Positions 10,569 to 22,154 of a DNA stretch of 32,616 nucleotides are shown here, one piece after another. The stretch is from Planctomycetia bacterium (GTDB lineage Bacteria > Planctomycetota > Planctomycetia > Pirellulales > Thermoguttaceae): the NCBI GenBank assembly GCA_026401055.1, contig JAPLNP010000066.1, positions 1-32,616 of the forward strand. The letters run 5' to 3'. The stretch's first letter is position 1. Each line of letters begins with the position of its first letter. Under the pieces are notes generated by a model. That model was not told the DNA's origin and ran no database searches. It was given only the letters and a program-made list of their open reading frames with translations. The position numbers and the translations under genes were made by a program.

Positions 10569-10781
10569 CGCACCAAATCCCAAGCCAACCAAGGTTCCTC
10601 ATTGCCCGGCGACACCCGGCGCATCAAACCGGCGTCTGACGGTCGGCCAGCGCCCCGGGAGCGAATTCTAGGCCCGCGGCCCGACCCCCGTCAACACCCA
10701 CGGTTCCCCTTGACGTCTCAGTGCCGGGGCCTATAAGCTAAAGGGGTCGCACACCCCACGTTCCGCGACTCAACCCACCTT

Positions 10782-10852
10782 TGGGGAATAGTGTAACGGC
10801 AGCACGACTGACTCTGGATCAGTTAGTCAAGGTTCAAATCCTTGTTCCCCAG
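10782..10852 (+). tRNA. tRNA-Gln (CUG anticodon), integration target
   Basis: Folds as a standard tRNA: acceptor TGGGGAA pairing with TTCCCCA, D arm, anticodon stem ACTGA/TCAGT with loop CTCTGGA (anticodon CTG), and T arm CAAGGTTCAAATCCTTG. CCA is not encoded. The 5' part up to 10810 is chromosomal; the 3' part from 10811 is the left copy of the attachment repeat, so integration leaves an intact tRNA gene. Confidence 0.95.
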
Positions 10853-10854
10853 TT
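10811..10854 (+). repeat. attL core (44-bp direct repeat)
   Basis: Identical over 44 bases to 21910-21953, starting ACTCTGGATCAG and ending GTTCCCCAGTT. It comprises the tRNA-Gln sequence from the anticodon arm to the discriminator base plus two bases. With one mismatch the match extends four bases further left. Confidence 0.95.
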
Positions 10855-10859
10855 ACGGA

Positions 10860-10899
10860 AAGCCTTTCACAGCAACGAGTTGTGAAAGGCTTCTTTTTT
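10860..10899 (+). terminator. Element-borne intrinsic terminator after tRNA-Gln
   Basis: A perfect 12-bp stem AAGCCTTTCACA / TGTGAAAGGCTT with loop GCAACGAGT, followed by a T-run (TTCTTTTTT). It lies inside the element yet closely resembles the host-side hairpin at 21961, with compensating base changes in the stem. Confidence 0.9.
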
Positions 10900-10923
10900 A
10901 GTGACGATGGGCCGAAAATGGCC

Positions 10924-11120
10924 GTGCTACCCCGGTGCTACCGGAAACGAGTCGTCCCGCGCGGACCCCGTTTTCCGGTGCTACCCACGGTGCTACCGGT
11001 CCGGTGTCGCCCCAAGAATCACCTGGGGAATGTTCACCAAGTGCTCTCGCGGTGGCACCGCGTCTCAGCAGCACGCCGCCGGCCCGGGGCGACACGGGGT
11101 CGGTAGCACGGCGGTAGCAC
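10924..11120. promoter_or_regulatory. Left cluster of GTGCTACC sites (candidate integrase arm sites)
   Basis: Six copies of the octamer GTGCTACC: forward at 10924, 10935, 10978 and 10990, and reversed (GGTAGCAC) at 11102 and 11113. The same octamer occurs four times near the other end of the element. Position beside the core site at both ends is what arm-type binding sites of lambda-like integrases show. The rest of 10900-11286 holds no gene I can support. Confidence 0.65.
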
Positions 11121-11286
11121 CGGCACGACCGACAACCAGCCGCCGGCCGCCGCCGCCCAGGGCCGACCGGCAGCACGACGCGGTGGGCGTCGTCGAGTGG
11201 TTCGGCCTGGGGCTGATGGTTCACCCTGCCGCCCGGGGGCCCCCTCTATGTGACTTGGGATGGGCACGGACGACCAGGATTCCCCC

Positions 11287-11315
11287 TTGACTTTTTCGCA
11301 TTTTGCGAAGATACT
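11287..11315 (+). promoter_or_regulatory. higBA promoter with operator palindrome inside the spacer
   Basis: TTGACT (11287-11292), 17-base spacer, GATACT (11310-11315). The spacer contains the palindrome TTCGCA-TTT-TGCGAA (11295-11309), so a repressor bound there would block RNA polymerase. HigA-type antitoxins autoregulate in this way. Confidence 0.75.
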
Positions 11316-11351
11316 TGAATAGCGGTGCCGATCCTGAGAACGAGGGCACGG

Positions 11352-11657
11352 ATGCACGTCATCTCGAAGAAGAAGCTCCGAGAGTTCTGGGAGGATCACC
11401 CGGAAGCGGAAGAGCCGCTTCGGGCGTGGTACCGGATCGTCGAGAAAGCCGCGTGGGAGAGTTTCGCCGATGTTCGCGCCACGTTCCCCAGCGCGGACCT
11501 GGTGGGCCACCTCGACGAAGGGCACCGCATCGTGTTCAACATCGGCGGGAACAAGTACCGCTTGGTCGTCGTCGCGTTTTTCGAGTTCGGTCGGGTGTAC
11601 GTCCGGCACGTCCTCACCCACGCCGAATACGACCGGGGCGGATGGAAGGGAGAGTGA
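11352..11657 (+). CDS. higB: HigB-type toxin (mRNA interferase)
   Basis: 101 aa from ATG 11352 (MHVISKKKLREFW); a GTG nine codons upstream is less likely. HigB toxins are RelE-like RNases that cut mRNA at the ribosome. The family pattern is visible: HVISKKKLREFWE at the start, WYRIVEKAAWESFADVR, then FNIGGNKYRLVV and VYVRHVLTHAEYD near the C-terminus. The toxin gene precedes the antitoxin by two bases, the usual higBA order. In this setting it probably stabilises the integrated element. It is one of only two genes in the element on the + strand. Confidence 0.93.
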   Translation: MHVISKKKLREFWEDHPEAEEPLRAWYRIVEKAAWESFADVRATFPSADLVGHLDEGHRIVFNIGGNKYRLVVVAFFEFGRVYVRHVLTHAEYDRGGWKGE

Positions 11658-11659
11658 CC

Positions 11660-12076
11660 ATGGCCACCGTCGACCGACCGGCAAACCGGCAAGACCGCTA
11701 TATGGAATTGGTACGCCAATTCCCCTTGCGCCCCATCCGATCGAAGAAGGCCCTCGACGACGCCGTGCGGATGGTCGACGCGCTTCTGGACAAACCGCAT
11801 CTGACGGCCGCGGAAAGGGATTACCTCGACGTGCTCGGCGGGCTGGTCGAACAGTACGAGTCGAAGGAACATCCGATCGAACCGTTGCCCGATGGCCCCA
11901 TGCTCCGCCAGTTGATCGAGGCCCGGGGCGTGTCGCAAACCGAAGTGGCCCGGGCCACTGGCATCGTCGATTCGACCATTTCGGCCGTCTTGAAGGGTAA
12001 GCGGTCCCTGAACCGCGAGCACATCGGCCGGCTGGCCCAATTCTTCCACGTGAGCCCCGACGTGTTTGCCTTCTGA
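11660..12076 (+). CDS. higA: HigA-type antitoxin, HTH XRE family
   Basis: 138 aa from ATG 11660, two bases after the higB stop, with GGGAGAG as ribosome-binding site. The C-terminal half is a helix-turn-helix of the XRE type: LRQLIEARGVSQTEVARATG, then DSTISAVLKGKRSLNREHIG and LAQFFHVSPDVF. The N-terminal half (LTAAERDYLDVLGGLVEQYE) is typical of HigA partners that wrap the toxin. It should neutralise HigB and repress the promoter at 11287 through the palindrome there. Confidence 0.92.
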   Translation: MATVDRPANRQDRYMELVRQFPLRPIRSKKALDDAVRMVDALLDKPHLTAAERDYLDVLGGLVEQYESKEHPIEPLPDGPMLRQLIEARGVSQTEVARATGIVDSTISAVLKGKRSLNREHIGRLAQFFHVSPDVFAF

Positions 12077-12716
12077 GTGGCGCAGAATCGACCCACCAGA
12101 TTGCCCCAGGATAGACGATCGGGCGTCGGGTCAATGTCTGATACCTGTTGCCCAGCAGGCCGTTAGAATCGCGATGCGGGCCTCGGGCACAGAAAACGCC
12201 CAGCCGAGGCCGTCGTCGGGGGCCGCGGCGCCGGGGCCACGGTGATCGTGCTCACCAGCGGGTAGACCATCTACAACAACTCCTCGGCGTCCAGGTGGAC
12301 GTCCTGCGATGGGCGAACGAGAAAAAGCGGCCGACGGGGGCCGGTTTCGCAGTGGCGGGGAACCACGTCGCCGAAAGTCCGCCCGCCGGCCGCCAACATT
12401 TTCGATTACCGGTCATTCCGCCGACGTTTCCCCACCCGCGGGTTGTTTTCCTACGCGATTTTCCCGAGAAAACTGGCCTAAGACCTCGACTCGCGCACAC
12501 AATTACTTACCGGGGAAAACGCACTTTTCATACATACCGATCGTCCGATAACCGCCCTTTGGGCCGAGGGGCCCCGGCGGAAAGAACCTAGCTACCCCCC
12601 CACCCCCCTGGGGCGGAGGGGAAAGGGAGGGCCGGCACGCTCGTCCAGGGAGGCGGCGCGCCGAGCCCTTCCCAGCCGGCCGGGCCAGTCCACGACCCCA
12701 GTCGGCCAACCACCGA
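12077..12716. other. 640-bp region without a supportable gene
   Basis: Lies between the convergent ends of higA and the capsid gene. Short open frames on both strands lack ribosome-binding sites and have low-complexity, proline/arginine-rich translations. It holds a run of C and G tracts at about 12590-12625 (complementary short C4/G4 arms) that could form a hairpin or G-quadruplex and may end the capsid transcript. Confidence 0.5.
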
Positions 12717-13703
12717 TCAGAGGGTCAGGACGTTGCCCAACAAGTGCCCGCACTCCTTGTGCAGGAGCTTGATGGTGTAGTCACACCGCGCCCGAATCAC
12801 GGCTCCCCGTCGGGCTTCCTCCCTGTATTCCTCCGTGATGACCGCGAGTTCTTGGGCGTTGCCCAAGCCCGCGTTCTCTTGCGACCAAAGCAGCGTTCTG
12901 CCAATGCACGGTTCAGCGGGGTCATCGGTCACCGCCGCACGGCAGAGCATCGAGTATTGGTCCGACCAAATCGGGTCGATGTCGGGCGTGGCCGCCTCGT
13001 TTGCCACGTTCTGGTAGCCGCCGGCGACGACGATGCGGTCCAGGTCCAAGGCCGCGGCCACCGCCGAGGGCGTGATGTTCGCCGGATCGACCTTGCCCGC
13101 GTACTTCACGCGGTCGACGATCTCGTCGGTGTTCTTCAAGTGGTGGAACTGCCGGCGGTTCAGAACCAGGCAGTTCGGAATCATGCCACAGCCGGTGATG
13201 ACCTTCTGTCTGGCGGCCTCGATATTGGCGATGGGCCCGGCCGTATTCGGCTTGTCCCACTCGACCGACAGGTCCGTCTGCAGCGCCGCGCCCGTCCACG
13301 TCGACAGGTCGTAGAGCGCCGTGGCCGCCGCCACCTCGAACGCCCTCAGGATGCCGTCGATCGCACGCGACGAGTGGACGTTTTCGGCGTCCAACAAGTC
13401 GAGATACATTTTCAGTTCCCGGTCGTCGATCGGTTCCTCGACGCCGTGCTCGGCCGTGGCGTAGTTGGTCAGGTCGAACGTGAAGTTGGCGCGGTTGTAC
13501 GCACCCCACGGGGCCCTGCTCGTGTCCCTCGTGGTCAACAGGGCCTTCAGCGGGATGACGGCGATCTGGCCCTGTTGGCTTCCGACCAACCGCGGTCGGA
13601 AAACCTGGGGGCCGATGAATCCGAGTCTCGACAGTTCGAGGTTGAACTCGGCATACGACATTGCAAACTCCGGCCTCGTGATGGCCGTTGTGGGAGAAGC
13701 CAT
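12717..13703 (-). CDS. Phage major capsid protein (HK97-fold, lambda gpE-like)
   Basis: 328 aa, the usual length of gpE-like capsid proteins, with GAGAGG before the ATG at 13703. I recognise family features: an N-terminal arm followed by VFRPRLVG; an acidic helix segment EEPIDDRELKMYLDLLDAE; a P-domain-like part with IPNCLVLNRRQFHHLKN and DRVKYAGKVDP; DLDRIVVAGG; and a C-terminal block with PCIGRTLLW and RARCDYTIKLLHKECGHLLG. The gene lies 67 bases downstream of an S49 protease/scaffold gene, the order found in phage head operons. It should assemble into icosahedral shells. No portal gene accompanies it. Confidence 0.85.
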   Translation of the reverse strand: MASPTTAITRPEFAMSYAEFNLELSRLGFIGPQVFRPRLVGSQQGQIAVIPLKALLTTRDTSRAPWGAYNRANFTFDLTNYATAEHGVEEPIDDRELKMYLDLLDAENVHSSRAIDGILRAFEVAAATALYDLSTWTGAALQTDLSVEWDKPNTAGPIANIEAARQKVITGCGMIPNCLVLNRRQFHHLKNTDEIVDRVKYAGKVDPANITPSAVAAALDLDRIVVAGGYQNVANEAATPDIDPIWSDQYSMLCRAAVTDDPAEPCIGRTLLWSQENAGLGNAQELAVITEEYREEARRGAVIRARCDYTIKLLHKECGHLLGNVLTL

Positions 13704-13770
13704 TGGGTTATCCTCTCAGAAAAAATGTGGTTCAAACAGGAAACGAATGTGGTCCGTCGCGAGGCGGTGA

Positions 13771-14184
13771 TCAGCGGAACCGCTGGGCGATGGCGTCCAG
13801 GGCCGGAACGTTGCGCTCGTTGCTGGCGGTCAAAAGCGAAGCGTGCAAGTCCGGGTGTCGCCGGCAGACACGCACCATGGCCGTGCGTCGGTCGGCGCCG
13901 GTCTGCATTTCCTCGCGGACCAGGTCGTCGAGCTGCTCGGCCACGCCGCTGGTGGCCGTGGATGAGACTCTTTCCTCCAGCGTTTTGACGCCGGACTTTT
14001 GGGTGCCCGTCGCCTTGCTCGCCGCGGTCAACTGCCGATCCTTCTCGGCCAGTGCCGCGCGGGTCGAGTCGGCAACCGTCAACTGCTTGGTCAAGCAGTC
14101 GACGTAGAACTCTGCCGCCATGCCGGGGATGCTCTCCTGGAGTTCCTTCAAGTTGGCCGGCTCGGGGTTCATGTGATGGGACAT
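13771..14184 (-). CDS. Nested scaffold protein from an internal start (Nu3-like)
   Basis: In frame within the protease gene, codon 279 is an ATG (14184-14182) preceded at 7 bases by GAGGA (14192-14196), giving a 137-aa product starting MSHHMNPEPANLKEL. In phage lambda, scaffold Nu3 is made the same way inside gene C. The segment starts exactly where the protease domain ends. The ribosome-binding site is seen directly; its use is inferred. Confidence 0.5.
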   Translation of the reverse strand: MSHHMNPEPANLKELQESIPGMAAEFYVDCLTKQLTVADSTRAALAEKDRQLTAASKATGTQKSGVKTLEERVSSTATSGVAEQLDDLVREEMQTGADRRTAMVRVCRRHPDLHASLLTASNERNVPALDAIAQRFR

Positions 14185-15018
14185 CGGGGTTTCCTCATTG
14201 AAAACTGGGTACTTGGTTGAACCCGCCCCGTCCTGGAGACGGGCGAGCGTTGAATCGAAACTTTGAATGCCGTCGATCAGGCGGAGCTTCAGGGCCTCGC
14301 CGGCGACGAACACGCGACCATCCGCAACCTTGCGGACCGCCGACTCGGGCATCCGCCGGCCGCGGACGATCGACTGGATGAAGTCGCCGAAAAAATGGTC
14401 GACGATGCCCTGGAAATACGCCTCGTGCGCCGGCGTGATTTCCGTCCCGGGCTCGCCAGCCGACTTGTACGGGCCCGTGTCGATCGGCACGGCACGGATC
14501 CCCGCCTCGGTGAACATCTTGGAGAAGTCGTAGAGCATCATCTTGCTACCGATGCACCCGACCAGGTCCATGCGATGGGCGAAGATTTGGCCGGCCTGAC
14601 TGGCCAGCATGTACGCCGCGCTGCAGCACAACCCACAGACGGACGCCACGACCGGCTTGACCGCCCGGGCCGCAAGGATCGCATCGGCGGCTTCCGCCAA
14701 TCCCGCGCTCGATCCGCCCGGCGAGTCGATACGCAAGATGATGCTCTTGACCCGATCGTCCGAGGCGGCCTTGGCGACGGCCTCCGTCACTTGCTCGGTC
14801 GACGTGCCGTCAAACAGCAACGAGAAGGACGACGGCCGCTTGGTCAAGAGGCCGGCGACGTCCACCACCGCCACGCCCCGGATGATTTCCATGGGCAGGG
14901 CCGGCTGAAGGACCGCCGGCAGCCGAAGCGTCTCGGGTGAGAGCGAATTGAGCGCCGCCTCCAACTTGGAGCCGGCCCCCGGTTCGATCGACCAGAAGTT
15001 ATCGAGTGGAATCGTCAT
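13771..15018 (-). CDS. S49-family head maturation protease with C-terminal scaffold region
   Basis: 415 aa from ATG 15018 (AAGGTG upstream); the open frame extends far further up but that part is arginine/proline noise. Residues ~45-255 are a ClpP-fold SppA-like protease: RIDSPGGSSAG (97-106), candidate nucleophile Ser133 in CGLCCSAAYMLAS, and candidate general-base Lys185 in DTGPYKSAGEP. Residues ~280-415 are charged and helical (KQLTVADSTRAALAEKDRQL), as in scaffolding proteins. This is the lambda gpC layout: protease plus scaffold in one chain, next to the capsid gene. It should process the prohead. An internal start at 14184 would make the scaffold alone. Confidence 0.88.
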   Translation of the reverse strand: MTIPLDNFWSIEPGAGSKLEAALNSLSPETLRLPAVLQPALPMEIIRGVAVVDVAGLLTKRPSSFSLLFDGTSTEQVTEAVAKAASDDRVKSIILRIDSPGGSSAGLAEAADAILAARAVKPVVASVCGLCCSAAYMLASQAGQIFAHRMDLVGCIGSKMMLYDFSKMFTEAGIRAVPIDTGPYKSAGEPGTEITPAHEAYFQGIVDHFFGDFIQSIVRGRRMPESAVRKVADGRVFVAGEALKLRLIDGIQSFDSTLARLQDGAGSTKYPVFNEETPMSHHMNPEPANLKELQESIPGMAAEFYVDCLTKQLTVADSTRAALAEKDRQLTAASKATGTQKSGVKTLEERVSSTATSGVAEQLDDLVREEMQTGADRRTAMVRVCRRHPDLHASLLTASNERNVPALDAIAQRFR

Positions 15019-15080
15019 GTGTTCACCTTGCGTCGGAGACGGAACGGGGCGGTCAGAGGTGGGCCGTGGGGTTTTCCGGC

Positions 15081-15374
15081 CTACTCGACGACGTCGCCGT
15101 CGTCCGGGCAGTTTTCTTCGCGGCGGATAGAAGTGATGATGTGCTGGACGGTTTCGATGTCCGCGGAGATCAGCTCTTCGCCCGTGGCCAGCTTCGCCAG
15201 CAAGTCTAGCGCCAGTCTTCGGCGATTCCATGCCGAGGTGATGTCCAGCGGCGTCGATCCGGGGTGGTTCTTGTTCCAAAAATACCGGGCCTGGAGGATG
15301 TGACTCGAATCCGCGAGGATCTCGGCCGTGTGGCCCTCCAGCTCGATTTGCTGGAATTGTTCGCGAGTGAGCAT
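15081..15374 (-). CDS. Small conserved-looking protein of the head operon, unknown
   Basis: 97 aa, starting MLTREQFQQIELEG, with AAAGGAAAG before the ATG at 15374 and 62 bases ahead of the protease gene. It is helical and acidic (pattern RRRLALDLLAKLATGEELIS), with no cysteine motif, signal peptide or membrane segment. I do not recognise a family. Its place directly upstream of protease and capsid suggests a head-related or packaging-related job, for example a small decoration, connector or helper-interference protein, but nothing in the sequence decides this. Confidence 0.7.
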   Translation of the reverse strand: MLTREQFQQIELEGHTAEILADSSHILQARYFWNKNHPGSTPLDITSAWNRRRLALDLLAKLATGEELISADIETVQHIITSIRREENCPDDGDVVE

Positions 15375-15511
15375 CTTCTTTCCTTTCGCGTTTGGGTTGA
15401 ATTTGCCGCAATGTGGTAACGTGTACTGTACTTCTGTGGCGAGGTGATCGAGGCCCCAGGTTCCTAACGGTAGGAAAGAGCCCGCCGGGGACGACTCCGT
15501 CGGTTCCGCAT

Positions 15512-15562
15512 GTTGAAGGTTTAGGGTTGAAGGTTTGGGGCGTTCAACCCTAAACCTTCAAC
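15512..15562. repeat. 20-bp perfect inverted repeat (hairpin) between small genes
   Basis: Arms GTTGAAGGTTTAGGGTTGAA (15512-15531) and its exact complement (15543-15562), loop of 11 bases. The arm itself contains a repeated GTTGAAGGTTT unit, which recurs in the loop. The 3' end of the upstream zinc-ribbon gene, including its stop, lies inside the hairpin. It may be a terminator-like or RNA-processing element separating two parts of the operon. Confidence 0.85.
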
Positions 15563-15875
15563 CTTGACGTGCTCGGCGACGTGGCACCTGGTCGTCGGCG
15601 ATGATGACCTTGGCGGAGAACGTGCAGCCGATCGTCGTGCAGCCCAGATACCGCACGACCCGGGCGCCGTGCCGTTTGCTGGACGTGACGCGGAGCCGGC
15701 CGTCGGGACACCCAGGGCAGGGATCCCCGGACCGACGCAGACCAGCGCCGGCTACGAGGTCGAGGGCCAACTGCCCCGGCGAGACGCCCGCGGCGAGACA
15801 GACACGCTCGATTTCGGCCGCCGGCAGTCGCTCGCCGGATCGTAGCACGCGGATCATGCAGTCGTAGGAGTTCAT
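15558..15875 (-). CDS. Small zinc-ribbon-like protein, unknown function
   Basis: 105 aa from ATG 15875, whose start overlaps the upstream stop (ATGA, 4 bases). The N-terminal half is helical (LPAAEIERVCLAAGVSPGQL). The C-terminal half carries four cysteines, C53-x2-C56 (DPCPGCPDG) and C79-x4-C84 (YLGCTTIGC), spaced like a zinc ribbon, with a basic tail RRRARQG. This points to nucleic-acid binding. The longer open frame upstream is not supported. In phage satellites, small zinc proteins can act as transcription or packaging regulators; the role here is unknown. Confidence 0.75.
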   Translation of the reverse strand: MNSYDCMIRVLRSGERLPAAEIERVCLAAGVSPGQLALDLVAGAGLRRSGDPCPGCPDGRLRVTSSKRHGARVVRYLGCTTIGCTFSAKVIIADDQVPRRRARQG

Positions 15876-16171
15876 GGCAGTAGAACCTTCTCCCAGGGGA
15901 TCCCCGACTCCCAATCCATTGGCCCCGGGTCCGGTGGCCCGGGCCGTTCGCCCGGCCGCCATTCCCAATTTGCCAACCCCTCGGGCGGGTAGCAACCGTG
16001 TTCGCGGACGTAGGCCCCGAGGTCGCCGGGGGGCTCGGCCGAGTCCGGGGGCGAGGTTGGCGCCGCTGCGACAGAGATTACCCCCGAGGGCGATGTCGCC
16101 GTCGTCTGTCCGGCCTGAGTCGGCGGCGCGTTGAATAGGCTTCCAAACAAGTCGCGTACATCAAAGGCCAT
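15872..16171 (-). CDS. Small proline-rich protein, unknown function
   Basis: 99 aa from ATG 16171, preceded by GGGGAGA; the open frame further up consists only of translated tandem repeat and is rejected. It starts MAFDVRDLFGSLFN, has a proline/alanine/serine-rich linker (about residues 15-50), then a conserved-looking C-terminal part (LGAYVREHGCYPPEGLANWEW, shown in part as GAYVREHGCYPPEG). It overlaps the zinc-ribbon gene by 4 bases, so both are co-translated. I do not recognise it. Confidence 0.65.
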   Translation of the reverse strand: MAFDVRDLFGSLFNAPPTQAGQTTATSPSGVISVAAAPTSPPDSAEPPGDLGAYVREHGCYPPEGLANWEWRPGERPGPPDPGPMDWESGIPWEKVLLP

Positions 16172-16200
16172 CTTTTTTTCTCCCCGGGGATACCCTGGAC

Positions 16201-16361
16201 AAGCCCACCCAAGCCCACCCAAGTACACCCAAGTACACCCAAGCCGCATTCCACCGGGCGCATGTACACCCAAAGAAACCCCTGAAAATCCAGGGTAAAA
16301 CGCGCTTTGGGTGGGCTTGGGTGTACATGGGTGGGCTTGTTCAGCCTGGGTGTACTTGGGT
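16201..16361. repeat. Inverted array of 10-bp iterons, candidate replication origin
   Basis: Left half: AAGCCCACCC at 16201 and 16211, AAGTACACCC at 16221 and 16231, and a diverged ATGTACACCC at 16262. Right half, in reverse orientation: GGGTGGGCTT at 16309, GGGTGTACAT at 16319, GGGTGGGCTT at 16329 and GGGTGTACTT at 16348. Between them lies a more A-rich core (about 16272-16300) with a small inverted repeat CCCTG-N6-CAGGG (16280-16295). Two opposed iteron sets around an easily melted centre, beside a replicative ATPase gene, is the plan of satellite origins such as those of SaPIs. It runs 21 bases into the 3' end of the ATPase gene. Confidence 0.7.
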
Positions 16362-17987
16362 TTCCTCTATTCCCAACGAAAGACCGTAGGTCGTCTGGAT
16401 TCTGGCCAGTTCGGCCAGGTCGGTCCGATAGACCTTGCGACCATGCAGCGTGGATGGAGTCACGCCGTAGCGGCGGAATACGGTGGCCACCCCCTTGGGT
16501 GACCATTGCCGGAAACTCACTTGGTCAAGCTCTCGGGCCGCCTCGAGGATTTCCTTGGGTTGGGGCATGTCCAGGGCCGCCCGCCGCTCGGCCAGAATCC
16601 GCAGCAGAGTCTCGTCATGATCGGGCGTGGCGTCGTCCTTCCCGGCGTCGATGCTTGCCAGCGCGTGTTCCTGCAAGAGACCAAGCAGTCCCCGGACCCC
16701 GCGAGATTCGAGCCACGACGCGATGCTCAGAATGGGTTGCCACAGTTCAAAACTGCGACCGCTCATTGCCGGGCAAACGTCGGTTCGGCTCGGCAGGTCC
16801 AACCACGACTCGCCGTGCTCAAGCGCTATGGAGTGGAGGGCATCCCGTAGCACCTGCCACCCCTTGGCGTCGGAGTCGATCCGACGACATGGTTTCTCCG
16901 ACCCCGGTGGGGAGCGGAACATGGTGATTGAGATACATCGACTCGCCAGCGCCGGGGGGAGCCCAGATATGCACGCCAGCGCCTTGGGGGTGAACACGTC
17001 GAAGCTCACTGTCTTGAATCCGTTGTCTCCCATTGGCTCGAGCCGCGTTGCCGTGCCACCCCTTCGGTAGCCGGCAAGGAGCATCGAAAGGATCTCCGCC
17101 GTCGCCGGGTCCTGTGTGTTCCGCAAGCGCTCCGCTTCGTCCAGGAGAAGACAACCACCTTGGGAATGAAGCGTCCGGAACAACGCCGCGCCGGTCATAT
17201 TGCTTGACCCGAGCGGACGGAACACCAGTCGCGAAAGAACCTCGAAAACCCGGCTCTTGCCCGACCCGAGTGGACCACCCACGAACAAATAGGGCACGGC
17301 GTCCCACGTCTGAAAGATGTACGACAGCATCGACCAGCAAACCACGGTTGCAGTAACGCCGCCGGCATGGGCTGGAGGAAGGTCTATGAAGTGGGCGAAC
17401 CGCTCGAACATCGCCTTGAACGTGTCCGCCACGTCCGGGGCCGGCTCGCCGTCCAACCATCGCCGTCGGGCCGCCCCACTCCAGCCGGGCTTTGTGCTCG
17501 GGCTGGGTTCGCTCGGCGTCGGATGAATCCACAAGCGGCGACCGCCGGGCACATCGAGGATGTGGGCCATCGGGACCTTTTCCCGCCGGCCATCCGCCCA
17601 CCGAAGATAGAGTAGCCACCGACCCTGGACACGATCACCCATCGTCGTCATGCTCGGCACAGCCAAGCCCGACGCCTCGGGCACAATGAATCGCTCGGGG
17701 CGAATAAGCGACCCAGCGTCAACCTCGTCCTGCGACCCGGCCGCCGAGTCGCTCGGCACGGGTTGCCGCGCCACGTCTTCGGCCACCGCCAACAGTCGGC
17801 GATCCAGGTCGTCGGCGTCGAGGTCCGGAAAGGACTGCATTACGCGGTTCCGGAACGAGACGCGCTTCTCCCTCTTGGCGATGTCCAGCTTGTCGGCCTC
17901 GATCGTCTGGCCGTCGCGCTTGGCGAAGACGCAGACCGTGCCGTTCCTCCCTGATGGGGTATACTCCAACGTGATATTGTCGTTCAT
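16341..17987 (-). CDS. DUF3631-like AAA+ ATPase / replicative helicase
   Basis: 548 aa. Walker A is GGPLGSGKS (residues 237-245) after PYLFV, Walker B is CLLLDEAERL (279-288), followed by a sensor region FDVFTPKALACI and the arginine-bearing LPPALASRCISI. The segment SFELWQPILSIASWLESRG and the C-terminal winged-helix-like part (SPKGVATVFRRYGV) match the DUF3631/phage-primase C-terminal ATPases found in integrated elements. I see no primase active site in the N-terminal ~200 residues. Likely job: unwinding the element's origin. The last seven codons are formed by the iteron repeat. The start overlaps the upstream gene by 4 bases. Confidence 0.8.
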   Translation of the reverse strand: MNDNITLEYTPSGRNGTVCVFAKRDGQTIEADKLDIAKREKRVSFRNRVMQSFPDLDADDLDRRLLAVAEDVARQPVPSDSAAGSQDEVDAGSLIRPERFIVPEASGLAVPSMTTMGDRVQGRWLLYLRWADGRREKVPMAHILDVPGGRRLWIHPTPSEPSPSTKPGWSGAARRRWLDGEPAPDVADTFKAMFERFAHFIDLPPAHAGGVTATVVCWSMLSYIFQTWDAVPYLFVGGPLGSGKSRVFEVLSRLVFRPLGSSNMTGAALFRTLHSQGGCLLLDEAERLRNTQDPATAEILSMLLAGYRRGGTATRLEPMGDNGFKTVSFDVFTPKALACISGLPPALASRCISITMFRSPPGSEKPCRRIDSDAKGWQVLRDALHSIALEHGESWLDLPSRTDVCPAMSGRSFELWQPILSIASWLESRGVRGLLGLLQEHALASIDAGKDDATPDHDETLLRILAERRAALDMPQPKEILEAARELDQVSFRQWSPKGVATVFRRYGVTPSTLHGRKVYRTDLAELARIQTTYGLSLGIEETQVHPG

Positions 17988-18367
17988 GGCGCGGCCCCCC
18001 GATCACGGAGAACCTGGCCGACCTCTCTCAGTCCGCGCAAAAACGCCAGATCCCATTGTCGATTCGCCTCCCCCTCGATCGTCCGCGGCTTCGTGTTGCC
18101 CATGCCGATGATGCGGCGGGGGTCGTAGAGCGGGCGATGCAAGTGGGACAGTTCAAGCGCGTGGTATTCGTCGATGGTATTGTGGAGTGCCGCGCCGCCG
18201 TCATCCGCGAAGTGGTTGAAAACGACCGCGCGAACATGCGGCGGTCCATAGACCTGGACAAACCCGTCCGCGAACACCTCGACGATGATCGGAATCGGCG
18301 CCAGTCGCGGTTCGGGTTTCGGACGATCGACGGTCCGGAGGGTGATGGTCTTCGTTCGTGTGGTCAT
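17984..18367 (-). CDS. Small hypothetical protein of the replication operon
   Basis: 127 aa, starting MTTRTKTITLRTVDRPKPEP, with 4-base overlaps to both neighbours (ParB-like upstream, ATPase downstream), so it is translated as part of the same unit. It contains IPIIVEVFADGFVQVYGPPH, a beta-rich stretch, and a central HNTIDEYHALELSHLHRPLY. No known motif, signal or membrane segment is visible. Its tight coupling suggests a replication accessory function. Confidence 0.75.
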   Translation of the reverse strand: MTTRTKTITLRTVDRPKPEPRLAPIPIIVEVFADGFVQVYGPPHVRAVVFNHFADDGGAALHNTIDEYHALELSHLHRPLYDPRRIIGMGNTKPRTIEGEANRQWDLAFLRGLREVGQVLRDRGAAP

Positions 18368-19218
18368 CCGCCTGCACCTCCGAACCGCTCGGCCTCGATT
18401 CGGTCCAGCGTCTCGCGCGCGACGGCGATCAGAACGCGGACATCCTCGTCGCTCAAGACGGCCGCGTAGCTAGCGAACCAGTCGCGAACCGTGGAGCCCA
18501 CGCACTCGTCGCCGTCGGCGATATCATCATCACGGACTTCTGGCTCATCGGCTGGCAGGTGCAACTTCAGCGTAGCCGCGTTGGTGGGTTTGCCGGCACG
18601 CTTCGTCTTCGTCGCCTTGCCTGCGACCTTCTCATCAACCCACTCGTCTTGCTCGGCGTGGTCCTTGTTGGTGGCGACCTTAGCCGCGGCGGAAACGGCG
18701 ACCTTGCCGTCCTTGACCGCGGCGGCGAGCTTCTTGGACCCCTGCTTGGTCACCTTGGCGGCATGGTCAACAGACTTGCCAGAGACCTTCATGAGCTTGG
18801 CGGCCTTGTCGCGGGATTTCCCCTTCTCTTTTTGTGGTGGTAAATTTGCCACCACAGATTTCGGCTTCCGCTTCTTCCTGTCCTTGGCATCGGCGGCGAA
18901 AATCTCAGCGAGCTTCGCCGCAACCATCGCCCTCTGCGACTCGTTCAGATGGCGGCGGTGGACATTCAGGGAGACGACGTGCGCGATGGGGTCCTTAATC
19001 GCGAAGTCCACGCCGATCGTCTTGGGCTCGATGCCGAGCTTCATGCAGGCGCGATAGCGGTGCTTGCCGTCGAGTATCTTGCCGTCGTACAGCTCAATGT
19101 CGTTGATCTGGCCGTGTTGCTTGATGTCCTCGACGAGCCGGTCAAACTCGTCACCGCTCATTGACGGGAAGATGTCGGCGGCGGGGTGGACGTCGAGGTT
19201 GTTTCTGATAGAATCCAT
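18364..19218 (-). CDS. ParB/Spo0J-domain DNA-binding protein
   Basis: 284 aa from ATG 19218 with AAGGAGA eight bases upstream. The N-terminal ~95 residues are a ParB N-terminal (sulfiredoxin-like) domain: VHPAADIFPSMSGDEFDRL, DGKILDGKHRYRACMKLGI and the helix NVHRRHLNESQRAMVAAKLAE. A long lysine/alanine-rich middle (about 115-215) is probably flexible and DNA-binding. The C-terminal ~60 residues are acidic and helical. Such proteins may act in partitioning, replication or transcription; no parA gene accompanies it, so classic partitioning is less likely. Confidence 0.82.
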   Translation of the reverse strand: MDSIRNNLDVHPAADIFPSMSGDEFDRLVEDIKQHGQINDIELYDGKILDGKHRYRACMKLGIEPKTIGVDFAIKDPIAHVVSLNVHRRHLNESQRAMVAAKLAEIFAADAKDRKKRKPKSVVANLPPQKEKGKSRDKAAKLMKVSGKSVDHAAKVTKQGSKKLAAAVKDGKVAVSAAAKVATNKDHAEQDEWVDEKVAGKATKTKRAGKPTNAATLKLHLPADEPEVRDDDIADGDECVGSTVRDWFASYAAVLSDEDVRVLIAVARETLDRIEAERFGGAGG

Positions 19219-19284
19219 GGAACATTTCTCCTTTGACCCGGGCGCGAAACGGTCCACGTCGCGTACCGGGTTTTTTGTTGGGGT

Positions 19285-19521
19285 TCACTCGGCACCGTCA
19301 CCGCCGACTGTCCGGCGGCGCAGAAAGTCGTCCAGGTCGCATTTTCGGTAGCGCACGGAGCGACCAATCTTGACCATGGGCAAGTATTTGCCAGTCATCG
19401 CCCAAGCCGCCAGCGTCTGGGTTTTCATCGTCAGGTACGCCGCGGCCTCTTCCCGCGTCTTCAGTTCGCTTTGTTCGTCCTTCGCCCGCGTCTTCAGTTC
19501 CCTCGTGGCTGTGGCAGTCAT
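19285..19521 (-). CDS. Excisionase/AlpA-like helix-turn-helix protein
   Basis: 78 aa from ATG 19521, with GAGGG six bases upstream; a TTG two codons earlier is possible. The C-terminal half is a MerR-like winged helix: LKTREEAAAYLTMKTQTLAAW, shown in part as TREEAAAYLTMKTQTL, then VKIGRSVRYRKCDLDDFLR. AlpA and Xis proteins of satellites have this form: they activate satellite genes or steer excision. It is the first gene after the strong terminator and heads the replication operon, so a regulator role is likely. Confidence 0.85.
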   Translation of the reverse strand: MTATATRELKTRAKDEQSELKTREEAAAYLTMKTQTLAAWAMTGKYLPMVKIGRSVRYRKCDLDDFLRRRTVGGDGAE

Positions 19522-19696
19522 CGTCAACCCTCATTAAAAATAATGGAAACCAAACGTCGAGAAGGAATCCTAGCAGACAACGCTCAATCCACGTTTGCGG
19601 ATCCGCTCGTTTTCGGCCAGATGTCCGCAAATTTCCGGTTCTTGCCGGTTGGGGCCTGTTGGGGCCTGTTGGCCTGCTTTTCAACGTAAGCGCATG

Positions 19697-19722
19697 AAAA
19701 AAGCCCCGACCGGCGGGGCTTT
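19697..19722 (-). terminator. Intrinsic terminator of the int operon
   Basis: On the minus strand, stem GCCCCG/CGGGGC with a 5-base loop followed by six T residues. It separates the int-228-aa gene unit from the HTH gene and replication operon, so those are transcribed independently. Confidence 0.9.
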
Positions 19723-19740
19723 GGTGGGCGATGCGTCGTA

Positions 19741-20427
19741 TCAGTCCTCGGCGTGCTCGTCCTCTTTCTTCTGGCCACTGCGCGCGATCCAGTCGTCATA
19801 GAGCGGATCGCGCGTGTTGACGCGCCACGACCCCTTCGCCGCCCGTTGAACGCGGTTCGATCCGTCCTTGCTCCATTTCATCAACGTTCTCTGTGTGCGC
19901 CCGAGCCGCTTGGCCCACGTCGACAGTGTGGCCGAGTCCGACCAGACCGGAGGATTTCGTTTCTCTGGCGATGCGGCGTCAACTACGCCGTCGGCGCCGG
20001 GCACGACCGGATCGGCTCGCTCCGCGCGGACGCGGGCCTCCAGCCGATGCAGCGCAGTGACCACGGCCGCCCATTGGTCATCGCTCGGCGAATCGAAATA
20101 GTCGTGCAAATTCCACAACGCGGTCGAATTCATTCCCCGGACTTCCATCACGCCGGCCAGGGCCTTCAGCAAGTCAACCACCTCGACCCGGAGGTCGACC
20201 AGGTGCGGTATGTCATCAAATGCTTCCTGAACCGACTTGGGCTTCTTTCGGCTGAGGACCACCAGTTCACCCCACAGCCGCCGGAAGTCAGCAATTCCCC
20301 GCAAAACGTCATCCATCGGACTGGCCTTCTCCGTTTGCTTCGGCATTCGCGCCTGCAGTTCGGCCCACAGCCGTGCGTACTCAACCCACGTCCGCAACAC
20401 GTCATCCAACCGCAACACGTCATCCAT
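19741..20427 (-). CDS. 228-aa protein overlapping int, with N-terminal 37-aa duplication
   Basis: Starts inside the last 8 bases of the integrase gene. The first 37 residues (MDDVLRLDDVLRTWVEYARL...) are followed by a related unit, MDDVLRGIADFRRLWGEL; at DNA level ACGTCATCCATCGG recurs exactly 111 bases apart, so this is an in-frame tandem duplication. The C-terminal ~65 residues look like a helix-turn-helix (LSTWAKRLGRTQRTLMKWSK then KGSWRVNTRDPLYDDW). No known family recognised. Coupling to integrase and the DNA-binding look suggest a recombination directionality factor or an int regulator. Confidence 0.75.
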   Translation of the reverse strand: MDDVLRLDDVLRTWVEYARLWAELQARMPKQTEKASPMDDVLRGIADFRRLWGELVVLSRKKPKSVQEAFDDIPHLVDLRVEVVDLLKALAGVMEVRGMNSTALWNLHDYFDSPSDDQWAAVVTALHRLEARVRAERADPVVPGADGVVDAASPEKRNPPVWSDSATLSTWAKRLGRTQRTLMKWSKDGSNRVQRAAKGSWRVNTRDPLYDDWIARSGQKKEDEHAED

Positions 20428-21751
20428 CGGGCTGGCCCCCCTCGGTCCCGTTGCCCTCGACCAGGCCCGCAGCCGTGCGCATGGCCAGGGTCGCCGCCTC
20501 GACGTCCACGATCACGCCGTTGCCCTCCACGGCGTCGTCGACGATCACGCCGTTGCCCTTCACGCCGCCGGCCTCGCGCATCGCAGACACGGCCGCCTCG
20601 ACGGATGCACGAACCGGATCGAGTTGCAGCCGGCTGTAGATCGCCGTCGCCGATTGGTCGCGATGCCCAAGGGACTTGCCGATGATCGGCAGACTCGACC
20701 CCGCCGCTGCCTGCCAGCTACCGAGCGACCGACGTAGATCATGGGGACGCATCCCCGAGATACCGGCGCGCTCCAAGATGCGGGCCCAAGGTTTGTACGG
20801 GTCGACGACGTGCCCTTGCTTCGCGCGGCGGTTGGCGGGGAATACAAAATCCGACTTCTTCCTGCTCGCCTGCCTGGATTCGAGGATGACCCGCGCCGGC
20901 TCGGCCAACACTATGACCATCGGCTTGCCGTTCTTCATTGCGGAACCCGGCAAATACCACAGCCCCTTCCCCAGGTCCAGTTGCTCCCACCTCATCGCCT
21001 GGACGTTTCCACGCCGGGCCCCGGTAAACAACGCGACGAGGAAGTAGTCTCGCCACAGCGGCTCCTCGACGGCCAGCGCGGCGAAGAACCGCCCCATTTC
21101 GTCCGGCAGCAAGAAGCGTTCCCTCGATTCTTCGGCGAACCGCTTCACGCCGACGCACGGATTCGGCAGACTGACCCCCAGGTCATCGGCTGCTCGCCAC
21201 ATTGCCGATAGCAGCGCTCGAGCCCGGTTCGCCTGGTAGTGACCGTGCTTCTCGCCGAGACGGGCGTGCCAGCGCTGGACGTCGGCCCTGATGATGTCCT
21301 TCAGTCGGCGACCTGCCAAGACGGTGAAGTACTTCTTGAACACCCGCTGATCTTCCTTCCAGGTCTTCTTGCGGGGCTTGGCGTGTACCGTCAGCCAGTG
21401 GCTGAACAGTTCCTTGAGGGTGGGCGACTCCCGCCGCGCCCGTCGCTCGGACGCGGGGTCCTTCCCGGCCGCAATCTCGCCCACCATTTCCCTGACCGCG
21501 GACCGGGCGTCGTCGATCGACACGTTGGGGAACTTCCCCAGCCGGATCCGCTCCGGTCGACCGTCGATCTTGCGGTACAAGTAGTACGACTTGCTGCCGG
21601 CCTCCGTCACAACCAGGCACAGCCCGGGCGTCTTGCTGTCGTAGTGGTAGACCCTCCCCCGTTCGGGCGCAGCCAGCTTCTTCAGTCGCTCCATCGTGAA
21701 CGGAAACCGCGACGTGCCCACCTGTTTGCTCCCCATAACGATGCTCCCCAT
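20420..21751 (-). CDS. int: Tyrosine integrase of the element
   Basis: 443 aa. N-terminal arm-binding domain (DUF4102-type, SKTPGLCLVVTEAGSKSYYL in part), core-binding SAM-like domain (about 110-205), and catalytic domain with the full set R246 (TGARRGNV), K273, H337-x2-R340 (RPHDLRRS), H363 (LGHRD) and Y372 (IYSRL). It catalyses integration into tRNA-Gln and, with help, excision. The C-terminal tail holds a duplicated GNGVIVD segment. The first 15 bases (ATGGGGAGC..) are repeated, creating a second possible ATG at 21736 with GGGGAG ahead of it. It lies 159 bases from attR and reads inward. Confidence 0.95.
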   Translation of the reverse strand: MGSIVMGSKQVGTSRFPFTMERLKKLAAPERGRVYHYDSKTPGLCLVVTEAGSKSYYLYRKIDGRPERIRLGKFPNVSIDDARSAVREMVGEIAAGKDPASERRARRESPTLKELFSHWLTVHAKPRKKTWKEDQRVFKKYFTVLAGRRLKDIIRADVQRWHARLGEKHGHYQANRARALLSAMWRAADDLGVSLPNPCVGVKRFAEESRERFLLPDEMGRFFAALAVEEPLWRDYFLVALFTGARRGNVQAMRWEQLDLGKGLWYLPGSAMKNGKPMVIVLAEPARVILESRQASRKKSDFVFPANRRAKQGHVVDPYKPWARILERAGISGMRPHDLRRSLGSWQAAAGSSLPIIGKSLGHRDQSATAIYSRLQLDPVRASVEAAVSAMREAGGVKGNGVIVDDAVEGNGVIVDVEAATLAMRTAAGLVEGNGTEGGQPDG

Positions 21752-21761
21752 GAAAAATCCC

Positions 21762-21815
21762 GTGCTACCGCCGTGCTACCGGTGCTACCAAAAACAGTCA
21801 AAAACGCGGTAGCAC
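21762..21815. promoter_or_regulatory. Right cluster of GTGCTACC sites (candidate integrase arm sites)
   Basis: Three forward copies (21762, 21773, 21782) and one reversed (21808) of the octamer found six times at the left end. They lie directly upstream of the integrase start, so integrase binding here could also control its own expression. Confidence 0.65.
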
Positions 21816-21825
21816 CGTCAATAGT

Positions 21826-21854
21826 AGCTTAGCCGTAAGTCGTTTTGGGGTCAA
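21826..21854 (-). promoter_or_regulatory. Candidate int promoter
   Basis: On the minus strand, TTGACC (21854-21849), 17-base spacer and TAAGCT (21831-21826). The -10 match is weak. The arm-type octamers lie just downstream, between it and the int start. Confidence 0.3.
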
Positions 21855-21909
21855 CACCTATCAACAAGAACCAAACTGACAAAACGGGCGTCAAAACGCT
21901 CGGAAACTC

Positions 21910-21953
21910 ACTCTGGATCAGTTAGTCAAGGTTCAAATCCTTGTTCCCCAGTT
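21910..21953 (+). repeat. attR core (44-bp direct repeat, tRNA-Gln fragment)
   Basis: Exact copy of 10811-10854. It contains the anticodon loop to the 3' end of tRNA-Gln but no 5' acceptor strand or D arm, so it is a displaced tRNA fragment, not a functional tRNA. Confidence 0.95.
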
Positions 21954-21954
21954 G

Positions 21955-21997
21955 ACGCAAGGCCTTTCGTAGCAATGAGTTACGAAGGGCCTTTTGC
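21955..21997 (+). terminator. Host tRNA-Gln terminator displaced by integration
   Basis: Stem GGCCTTTCGTA / TACGAAGGGCC with loop GCAATGAGT, extended by ACGCAA/TTGCGT, then a short T-rich tail. Before integration this hairpin would have followed the tRNA-Gln gene directly. The element now supplies a diverged version at 10860. Confidence 0.75.
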
Positions 21998-22154
21998 GTT
22001 CAGCGGAACTGGAATCGCATCTGCCGCGAGTCGGGAGACGTCAGCGGTTTGGTGATTTCGCCATTCCCGCGTAGATTGGAGACATCGAAGACACATCGAA
22101 GGCACGCTTCGCAAACTTGCACTCAACAACCCCGGGCTTCAAGGAGGCGAACCC

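Follow-up and report, generated by a model that had tools for sequence, protein, structure and literature searches.

Several phage satellites carry genes for capsid proteins: SaPIbov5 has Ccm, EcCICFT073 is described as encoding capsid and head decoration proteins, and PmCI172 a major capsid protein (MCP) homologue (PMC5052747, PMC8569155, PMC6092414). According to the account in PMC5052747, Ccm acts at pentamers, giving a smaller shell and blocking the helper phage, and SaPIbov5 is described as retaining the 3' region of terS (PMC5052747, PMC8569155). A preliminary description of the DNA analysed here had stated that satellites making heads usually bring packaging genes too, which is too strong in view of these three islands as their sources present them. 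Our literature search found no paper joining planctomycetes and phage satellites.

The element described here occupies 11.1 kb of a planctomycete genome (GCA_026401055.1, contig JAPLNP010000066.1), between two tRNA-Gln-derived repeats; the window referred to below is the whole stretch of DNA that was analysed, 32,616 nucleotides. It is best explained, with a probability of roughly 0.55, as a satellite that depends on a helper: shell and packaging site would be its own, and everything else would come from the helper. A satellite with a helper had been proposed in the preliminary description, of which the bounded, apparently intact, satellite-like element stands; to it are added a cos-like block adjoining the MCP gene as a putative packaging site, the lack of a middle head gene, and sister loci that encode the small terminase subunit (TerS).

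Boundaries and genes of the element

The host genome contains three further protease-MCP loci (C486, C414 and C631), so the window element is not a lone relic, and a fifth locus (G033) is present in the Pirellulales MAG Zod_Metabat.223, of a different Pirellulales genus. Because the assembly of the host is in 673 contigs, with completeness at 87.2% and contamination at 3.04%, misbinning of the sister contigs is possible. The features of the window element are:

10781–10853, + strand: tRNA-Gln (CTG), the integration target (ARAGORN)
10811–10854: attL core, perfect 44 bp direct repeat
10923–11121: six SGTGCTACC matches inside attL, putative integrase arm-type sites
11325–11657, + strand: HigB-type toxin, 110 aa (PF09907, 2.5e-31)
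11660–12076, + strand: HigA-type antitoxin with HTH, 138 aa (phrog_1373, 1.1e-11, and others)
12328–12389: 62 bp stretch, 79% identical to C631 DNA, marking the site of a missing TerS-94aa gene pair
12476–12719, − strand: putative cos-type packaging site, a conserved non-coding block (conservation highest at 12500–12640)
12717–13703, − strand: lambda-type MCP, 328 aa (phrog_1005, 4.8e-38; profile match to 3bjq, 2.5e-19)
13771–15018, − strand: head maturation protease of family S49, 415 aa, ending in a C-terminal scaffold domain (PF01343, 2.2e-32; phrog_53, 1.8e-55)
13771–14184, − strand: nested scaffold frame (Nu3-like), with an internal ATG and a Shine-Dalgarno-like sequence
15081–15374, − strand: 97-aa protein, three helices predicted (65% identity to a C631 protein in the same place)
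15558–15995, − strand: short ORF listed at 145 aa (58 bp match C631; family scans negative)
15872–16273, − strand: short ORF listed at 133 aa (15895–16028 is 75% identical to C357; family scans negative)
16341–17987, − strand: P-loop ATPase, 548 aa, replication-type by context (50% identity to the C357 ATPase)
17984–18367, − strand: 127-aa protein (no family match; a relative adjoins the ATPase in G037)
18364–19257, − strand: ParB-like protein, 297 aa (phrog_4715, 5.2e-18; phrog_21315)
19285–19527, − strand: AlpA/Xis-like HTH protein, 80 aa (PF12728, 5.5e-8; phrog_66, 4.4e-7)
19741–20427, − strand: 228-aa protein (no confident match)
20420–21751, − strand: tyrosine integrase, 443 aa (PF00589, 4.7e-21; PF13356; phrog_1, 2.6e-61)
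21761–21816: four SGTGCTACC matches inside attR, putative integrase arm-type sites
21910–21953: attR core, perfect 44 bp direct repeat

The tRNA-derived repeat is perfect, as had been claimed. The 9-mer SGTGCTACC occurs ten times in the window where 0.23 occurrences are expected (ten were reached in none of 100 shuffles), and all ten copies lie about 70–270 bp inward of the two repeats; they look like integrase arm sites. The element has its own integrase with a specific att site and, near int, a predicted AlpA-type regulator (19285–19527), both traits of phage-inducible islands (PICIs) of the Gram-negative type. The gene on the right flank is present in 10 of 59 other genomes; the stretches around it (about 1.5 kb per side) contained no att or flank sequence that would mark an empty site, and tRNA-Gln was in none of the nine that were scanned of the ten.

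The terminal integrase, the AlpA/Xis-like protein and the HigBA pair of the preliminary description all agree with the family matches listed, and the reading frames of these genes and of the ParB-like, protease and MCP genes are open, in keeping with its claim that all genes are intact. The ParB-domain protein it named is likewise upheld as ParB-like by phrog_4715, Pfam giving nothing at 0.1. Its DUF3631-like label for the ATPase is not supported: the protein gives no Pfam match to DUF3631 even at an E-value of 10. The 548-aa protein has a P-loop and a Walker B motif by eye and weak PHROG matches (phrog_21086, 6.7e-5; DNA primase family, 0.017), and its predicted model (mean pLDDT 45.6) is too poor to decide by fold whether it is a large terminase subunit (TerL), so its reading rests on context and these weak matches. 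For the 97-aa protein encoded upstream of the protease the predicted model has three helices (pLDDT 85.7); a connector role is unsupported, with no match at E ≤ 0.001 in the PDB or among viral models. P4-like satellites have Sid, Psu and an alpha primase, and no match so named came up when the window proteins were compared with Pfam and PHROG.

Head genes and the adjoining non-coding block

The S49 protease, whose phrog_53 match is annotated 'head maturation protease', contains both the Ser133 and the Lys185 motif; the protease-scaffold originally proposed holds, with the refinement that the protease gene contains the scaffold frame within it. The nested start is also found in C486 and in all four phages examined, and is not flagged in C414, C631 or G033. 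The MCP, too, had been named correctly; it has no Pfam match, and phrog_1005 is annotated 'major head protein'. An own MCP and head maturation protease are a trait of capsid-forming PICIs (cf-PICIs), and an HK97-fold capsid homologue without portal or TerL, as predicted here from phrog_1005 and 3bjq, is a trait of cos-type SaPIs.

Portal, TerL and tail families gave no matches among the window proteins scanned with Pfam and PHROG, and profiles made from relatives (10 portals, 9 TerLs and 3 tape measures) gave none in window frames of at least 40 aa, which bears out the earlier picture of a shell module lacking portal, terminase and tail. A portal or terminase hidden in the small ORFs is rejected, the portal and TerL profiles being without match in the window. 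The unassigned ORFs treated as genes, the ATPase aside, are all of 228 aa or less, below the usual size of a portal or TerL. Of other cf-PICI traits, neither terminase subunit was found in the window (the sister loci have TerS only), nor an HNH endonuclease among the scanned element proteins, and the portal, TerL and tail genes of a complete temperate phage were not found between the att sites. Residues 1–275 of the window and C486 proteases differ with a dN of 0.029 and a dS of 0.286 (NG86), a ratio near 0.1, indicating that purifying selection acts on the protease domain. Between the same two loci the scaffold domain and the MCP both change at one break, at protease amino acids 275–290.

The block at 12476–12719 lies directly after the MCP gene, is 77–82% identical between the window and C631, C414 and C486, and is kept in the window although TerS is missing. 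A profile of the satellite blocks only gave eight matches at E ≤ 1 across 1.45 Mb of other loci, five of them no more than 11 nt from the start of a TerS ORF (E 0.0004 to 0.72); these figures are from the first profile round, the second having been seeded with first-round matches at E < 0.05, among them that in L024, which lies away from TerS. The matches at TerS are individually weak, and 25 of 32 TerS-bearing loci had none in the first round. Such weak but repeated matches to DNA abutting phage TerS suggest that the block is probably a cos-type packaging site, at which cutting is predicted only; it could instead be a TerS promoter or leader. INPHARED contained no convincing match to the block, and an exact-pattern scan of IMG/VR was also empty.

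In each of the three sister loci of the host genome TerS itself has a phrog_57 match, and in the TerS tree the three satellites form one clade (SH-aLRT 98.8). The TerS-94aa pair is present in C631 and missing in the window, and the C631 counterpart of 12328–12389 is the DNA just past this pair; because TerS is missing, the window element is possibly a decaying copy. A search of 396 genomes of the order gave a TerS match in 23. Matches outside the host genome fall at 27 places, 16 of which were examined, and at 13 of these a TerL match directly adjoins TerS. In G014 TerS adjoins a tape-measure-like gene, TerL being absent, on a 3.5 kb contig; G630 has a lone TerS amid host-looking genes; and for the second copy in G753 a TerL match lies on the opposite strand at a distance of about 9 kb.

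Relatives of the head genes and of the ATPase

An att-bounded relative exists, although only in the host genome itself; the preliminary description had counted a lack of such relatives in other genomes as refuting its reading. This relative, C486, is an 11.35 kb element in tRNA-Arg, flanked by a 47 bp repeat (94% identical), with genes for xis, Rep, a tape-measure-like protein (present in two satellite-type loci), protease, MCP, TerS and int. The C631 integrase is split and a search there for an att repeat was negative, and the first 96 residues of the C414 protease are unmatched.

The window, C486 and C631 are called satellite-type from their missing portal and TerL, and C414 and G033, on short contigs, by gene order. 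A gene between protease and MCP is present in none of the five satellite-type loci versus all 57 phage-type loci, a difference that is independent only for the window, C486 and C631, since the other two were classed by gene order; the profile for this gene was trained on 7 of the 57, and 12 duplicate locus names were removed from the counts, in which near-copies remain (the L073 and L118 MCP rows are identical). Where at least 2 kb is available upstream, a portal is found in 0/3 satellite-type versus 46/47 phage-type loci (L085, with more than 2 kb, was negative with the portal profile), and where at least 6 kb is available, TerL is found in 0/2 versus 27/31. All five satellite-type loci group in the protease-domain tree (support 82.6); in the best MCP tree they are not one clade, a single clade not being rejected (p-AU 0.37). 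Identity of the MCP to that of a phage contig bearing portal and TerL genes reaches 52%. A scan of genome contigs was negative when the single MCP served as query and yielded two loci with a six-row alignment. MCP matches in INPHARED are weak: coverage of the query stays below 80% in all 21 records, and the top row has 22.5% identity over 79%. The satellite-type gene order was not seen among viral contigs carrying both genes, so nothing places the satellite in particles.

Relatives of the ATPase occur in 24 of the 396 genomes; a pattern scan of IMG/VR found none. An integrase lies within about 1 kb in 8 of the 14 neighbourhoods examined, and the profiles for lambda-type head protease, MCP, portal and TerL matched in none of the 14 (four are on contigs under 8 kb). 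Full-length prophages with the same backbone, which the preliminary description had named as a possible refutation, were not found in these neighbourhoods, whose gene content points to integrase-tRNA elements, not prophages, as the source of the ATPase backbone. Such elements of the G227 type (L227, L229 and L234, for example) resemble the window element: an ATPase relative adjoins an integrase whose end overlaps a tRNA or tmRNA gene. They differ from it in giving no match to the head profiles, and the portal and terminase profiles do not match them either.

Interpretation and comparison with known satellites

From these genes we infer a helper, shell assembly, packaging and transfer. With a lambda-type helper phage active, the integrase and the AlpA/Xis-like protein would excise the element from tRNA-Gln, and the ATPase and ParB-like protein would replicate it. 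The satellite protease-scaffold and MCP would form a procapsid around the helper portal, and the helper terminase would cut the cos-like site and fill the shell, to which the helper tail would then be joined. Sister-locus TerS would recruit the helper TerL; the window element, without TerS, would use that of the helper or of a sister. Against this reading, the host genome shows no PF05876 TerL and a single portal, a divergent one of the lambda family, whose frame spans about 300 aa of a 4 kb contig. We also suggest, tentatively and at slightly less than even odds, a planctomycete satellite family in which a head-shell cassette (scaffold and MCP, protease, cos-like site) is swappable among unrelated integrase-tRNA backbones, the helper giving portal, motor and tail, and in which co-resident sisters swap scaffold and MCP at the nested scaffold start.

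The head genes might instead act as Ccm does, the satellite MCP co-assembling with that of the helper into a smaller shell and blocking the helper. Ccm is described as a capsid-protein homologue in a cos-type satellite (PMC5052747, PMC8569155), and the cos-like block and sister TerS would suit the same lifestyle. Such redirection nevertheless seems unlikely to us, since the element has kept its own protease and scaffold, with purifying selection on a protease domain for which a mere additive has no obvious use; the MCP is full length, with up to 52% identity to that of a portal- and TerL-bearing phage contig; and scaffold domain and MCP switch at a shared break, as expected if mutual fit is required. 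Deletion of portal, terminase and tail from a lambda-type prophage would leave a cryptic remnant, and the missing TerS-94aa pair, the split C631 integrase and the incomplete C414 protease are what such decay could produce. This history is hard to reconcile with the perfect att repeat, clustered arm-like sites and intact main genes, with five loci that agree in which head genes are present and which are absent (two contigs being short), with two complete 11-kb elements in different tRNAs with different replication modules, or with the single satellite TerS clade and the low protease-domain dN/dS. We consider it quite improbable, the more so because lambda-type head genes are absent beside the ATPase in all 14 other neighbourhoods, a result that lowered our estimate a little. 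HigBA and the blocking of a helper by a satellite capsid homologue elsewhere, as PMC5052747 describes it, would fit an island whose head genes shield the host by disturbing particle assembly in infecting phages, with transfer incidental or absent; with a cos-like block and sister TerS that point to packaging, and an apparently intact integrase and attachment sites, we think this very improbable.

If the helper-dependent satellite is real, the shell of a tailed virus can be a separable unit, carried by parasites that lack the portal from which it is normally seeded, and planctomycetes have seen a diversification of such parasites; a family with a swappable cassette would stand half-way between PICIs that only remodel a helper shell and cf-PICIs, which build complete heads. 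The assembly of a satellite shell on a foreign portal is thereby opened to direct test, and a search for phages in which a matching block precedes TerS would offer a route to helpers.

Lambda-type IMG/VR contigs and Pirellulales prophages (for example IMGVR_UViG_3300018080_005675 and L063) have a protease-scaffold and MCP homologous to those of the window and, unlike it, TerL, a gpW-like protein, a portal and the middle head gene; some such phages have a similar block upstream of TerS. MulchRoom and MiniFlayer, satellites from Streptomyces, likely bring a capsid of their own, as proposed for the window element, but are described as carrying both terminase subunits and a portal (PMC10690885). 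The cf-PICIs share with it an own MCP and head maturation protease and the expectation of a helper tail; the portal, connectors, both terminase subunits and HNH that they are reported to encode (PMC10690885) were not found in the window element. EcCICFT073 and PmCI172 are described as having, like the window, int at one end, an AlpA-type regulator and a capsid-protein gene (PMC6092414); the window differs in having a protease-scaffold, no decoration-type gene, and an ATPase and ParB-like protein as replication genes. The cos-type SaPIbov5 is, in the published accounts, a small chromosomal island with an HK97-fold capsid homologue and a phage cos site (PMC5052747, PMC8569155), to which the predicted capsid protein and the putative cos-like block of the window element would correspond; the latter element further has a head protease and a nested scaffold of its own, lambda-type proteins and a planctomycete host, and TerS is missing. 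The window element is thus best read as sitting between the cos-type SaPIs and the capsid-forming PICIs.

Boundaries and gene content of the element

The proposed satellite is bounded by a perfect 44-bp repeat of the 3' part of a tRNA-Gln gene, and its features in the window are as follows:

10781-10853: tRNA-Gln gene (ARAGORN)
10811-10854 and 21910-21953: the two copies of the repeat
10923-11121 and 21761-21816: six and four copies, respectively, of the 9-mer SGTGCTACC
near the left end, plus strand: HigBA pair
between the repeats, minus strand: integrase, 228-aa protein, AlpA-like HTH protein and ParB-like protein; 127-aa protein, P-loop ATPase, small ORFs and 97-aa protein; S49 head protease and major capsid protein (MCP)
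12476-12719: conserved non-coding block beside the MCP gene

ARAGORN calls only the left tRNA-Gln gene in the window, so the intact tRNA stays at the left side. The 9-mer occurs nowhere else in the 32.6-kb window, its expectation is 0.23 per window, and ten copies were reached in none of 100 shuffles. Tyrosine integrases have arm-type sites that flank both sides of the excised attP, and the two clusters share this layout and are putative arm-type sites. Terminator-like hairpins, alike by eye, follow each att copy (10855-10905 and 21954-22000), from which it seems that the element brings its own terminator for the tRNA.

Head genes and related loci

The protease contains a serine in SAAY (residue 133) and a lysine in YKSAG (residue 185), which we take to be the catalytic residues. 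An internal ATG at 14184, preceded by a Shine-Dalgarno-like GAGGAA, starts a nested frame that corresponds to the protease C-terminal domain, an arrangement that resembles C/Nu3 of lambda. A nested start was also flagged at the matching position in contig C486 of the same assembly and in all four phage proteases examined; the same script flagged none in host contigs C414 and C631 or in the locus of genome G033. The MCP matches phrog_1005, and a profile of ten of its relatives matches the solved phage protein 3bjq.

Among loci with protease and MCP on one strand by profiles (12 duplicate names removed), a head gene lies between the two in all 57 phage-type loci and in none of the five satellites. 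Where at least 2 kb lies upstream, a portal gene was found in 46 of the 47 phage-type loci and in 0/3 satellites, and where at least 6 kb does, the terminase large subunit (TerL) in 27/31 and 0/2, respectively. Two of four example middle genes match phrog_673 (head scaffolding) and also have weak matches to a head decoration family; of the other two, one matches a head fibre family and one has no match. L085 (IMGVR_UViG_3300046514_000747) is the sole phage-type locus with more than 2 kb upstream and no portal by profile. Two distant MCP matches in other genomes of the phylum (L056, L057) had no portal, protease or TerL by profiles.

The host assembly (6.68 Mb, 673 contigs, 87.2% complete, 3.04% contamination), whose binning could mix hosts, has four MCP loci. 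C486 carries a second complete element. The two copies of its 47-bp repeat are 94% identical and lie at 21-67 and within tRNA-Arg at 11366-11412, and it encodes xis, a Rep protein, a tape-measure-type protein (PF10145, 32.0 bits, slightly below the 33.2 cut-off), protease, MCP, terminase small subunit (TerS; phrog_57, 4.6e-7), a 78-aa protein and two integrases. It and the window element are the two repeat-bounded complete elements, known throughout from sequence data. C631 encodes xis, topoisomerase-like and RepO-like proteins, a relative of the 97-aa protein, protease, MCP, TerS and a 94-aa protein; its integrase is broken across two frames, and no att repeat was found on it. The 3.7-kb C414 encodes protease (its first 96 residues unmatched), MCP and TerS. 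The fifth satellite-type locus, the 4-kb contig C48 of G033, is from a different genus of the same family and matches by hits a contig of the Pirellulales MAG Zod_Metabat.223. Five of 119 genomes of the family have an MCP match, two (the host and G033) with the satellite gene order and three (G003, G022 and G006) with the middle head gene. Tape-measure-like proteins are also encoded in satellite-type loci, next to head or TerS genes (L017:2008-3657, L023:1-1548 and L191:345-2129), and some satellites could, judging from these neighbours, also set tail length.

Between the window and C486, protease residues 1-275 are 96% identical, with dN 0.029 and dS 0.286, so the catalytic part is under purifying selection. 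Past residue 290 the identity is 46%, and the downstream MCPs are 53% identical. This drop in identity falls at the nested scaffold start, so scaffold and MCP seem to have been replaced together as one unit. The three satellite TerS proteins form one clade (SH-aLRT 98.8) with the TerS of genome G014 outside it, and a modestly supported branch (82.6) separates the five protease domains from the rest; the MCPs form no clade in the best tree, with a single clade not rejected (p-AU 0.37).

A candidate packaging site

The non-coding block lies between MCP and TerS in the satellites, and the window copy is 77-82% identical in DNA to those of C631, C414 and C486, whereas MCP identity among the four is 37-55%. 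The window has the block and no TerS. A 62-bp match to DNA beyond the C631 pair of TerS and 94-aa genes starts about 90 bp after the window's block, which makes loss of TerS here likelier than its gain in the sister loci. Seven IMG/VR loci encode proteins related to the satellite TerS (38-46% identity), followed directly by a lambda gpA-type TerL in six and about 2.6 kb further on in the seventh. In five Pirellulales loci (L182, L184, L185, L186, L189) TerS adjoins TerL, and over the several kb that follow the profiles found no portal or MCP; these loci may have head families of another kind or be rearranged in other ways. A TerS relative in the two-contig genome G630 (L190, C1, 9691-10314) stands alone among host-looking genes, with no TerL nearby.

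Lambda-type phages keep cos directly upstream of TerS. A profile of the five satellite blocks was searched against 108 further loci (1.45 Mb in all, TerS present in 32) and gave eight matches at E<=1, five of them on the same strand and at most 11 nt from the TerS ORF start (L084, 0.0004; L191, 0.021; L188, 0.06; L089, 0.13; L181, 0.72). Two others lie 273 nt before TerL (L096, 0.0007) and 2.8 kb before TerS (L194, 5e-5), and the last is elsewhere (L024, 0.031); 25 of the 32 TerS loci had no match. The block is a candidate cos because these matches, each weak, fall beside TerS starts, position being the argument. It could alternatively be a TerS promoter or leader, but its retention in the TerS-less window element argues mildly for cos, the parts of which are named cosQ, cosN and cosB (PMC6092414).

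Backbone, helper and known satellites

Relatives of the window ATPase occur in 24 of 396 genomes of the order. In the 14 neighbourhoods fetched (ten contigs or stretches longer than 10 kb), an integrase frame lies within about 1 kb of the ATPase in eight, overlapped in six of these by a tRNA or tmRNA gene, and the profiles found lambda-type MCP, head protease, portal, TerL, TerS or block in none. The window backbone thus has the look of an integrase-tRNA element that gained a head cassette, rather than of a stripped prophage. Eight stretches of these widespread Pirellulales elements (L225, L227, L229, L232-L235, L237) have ATPase and integrase with an end overlapping or adjoining a tRNA or tmRNA gene, and the ATPase is often accompanied by a Toprim protein. 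The same ATPase is found on host contig C357, beside an integrase and tmRNA. This element-like region (L020, 1-13300), different from the window element, also encodes xis-like proteins, a DnaB-like helicase, a PF05065 capsid protein, short tape-measure-like proteins and a Toprim protein, with no portal or TerL seen, and is possibly a second satellite type with a different capsid family.

As for a resident helper, the search for lambda-type TerL (PF05876) was empty in the host genome (the control search was positive in 3 of 14 genomes), and the one divergent lambda-family portal (L196, contig C433, 3075-3983) is in a short frame, about 300 aa where relatives have 520-570, and shares its 4-kb contig with a tape-measure gene on the opposite strand.

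Among the papers available to the search, none treated planctomycetes together with phage satellites, and a second search that took in prophages and integrases gave, judged by titles, only other subjects. Among known satellites, cos-type SaPIs have a capsid homologue, Ccm, that substitutes for the helper protein at pentamers (PMC5052747, PMC8569155), EcCICFT073 has capsid and decoration proteins and PmCI172 an MCP homologue (PMC6092414), and cf-PICIs carry head and packaging genes (PMC10690885). The window element is not a cf-PICI, because portal and terminase were both looked for and not found. In its predicted way of working it comes closest to a cos-type PICI, here with a fuller shell module. 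The window element falls between the cos-type SaPIs, EcCICFT073 and PmCI172, and the cf-PICIs.
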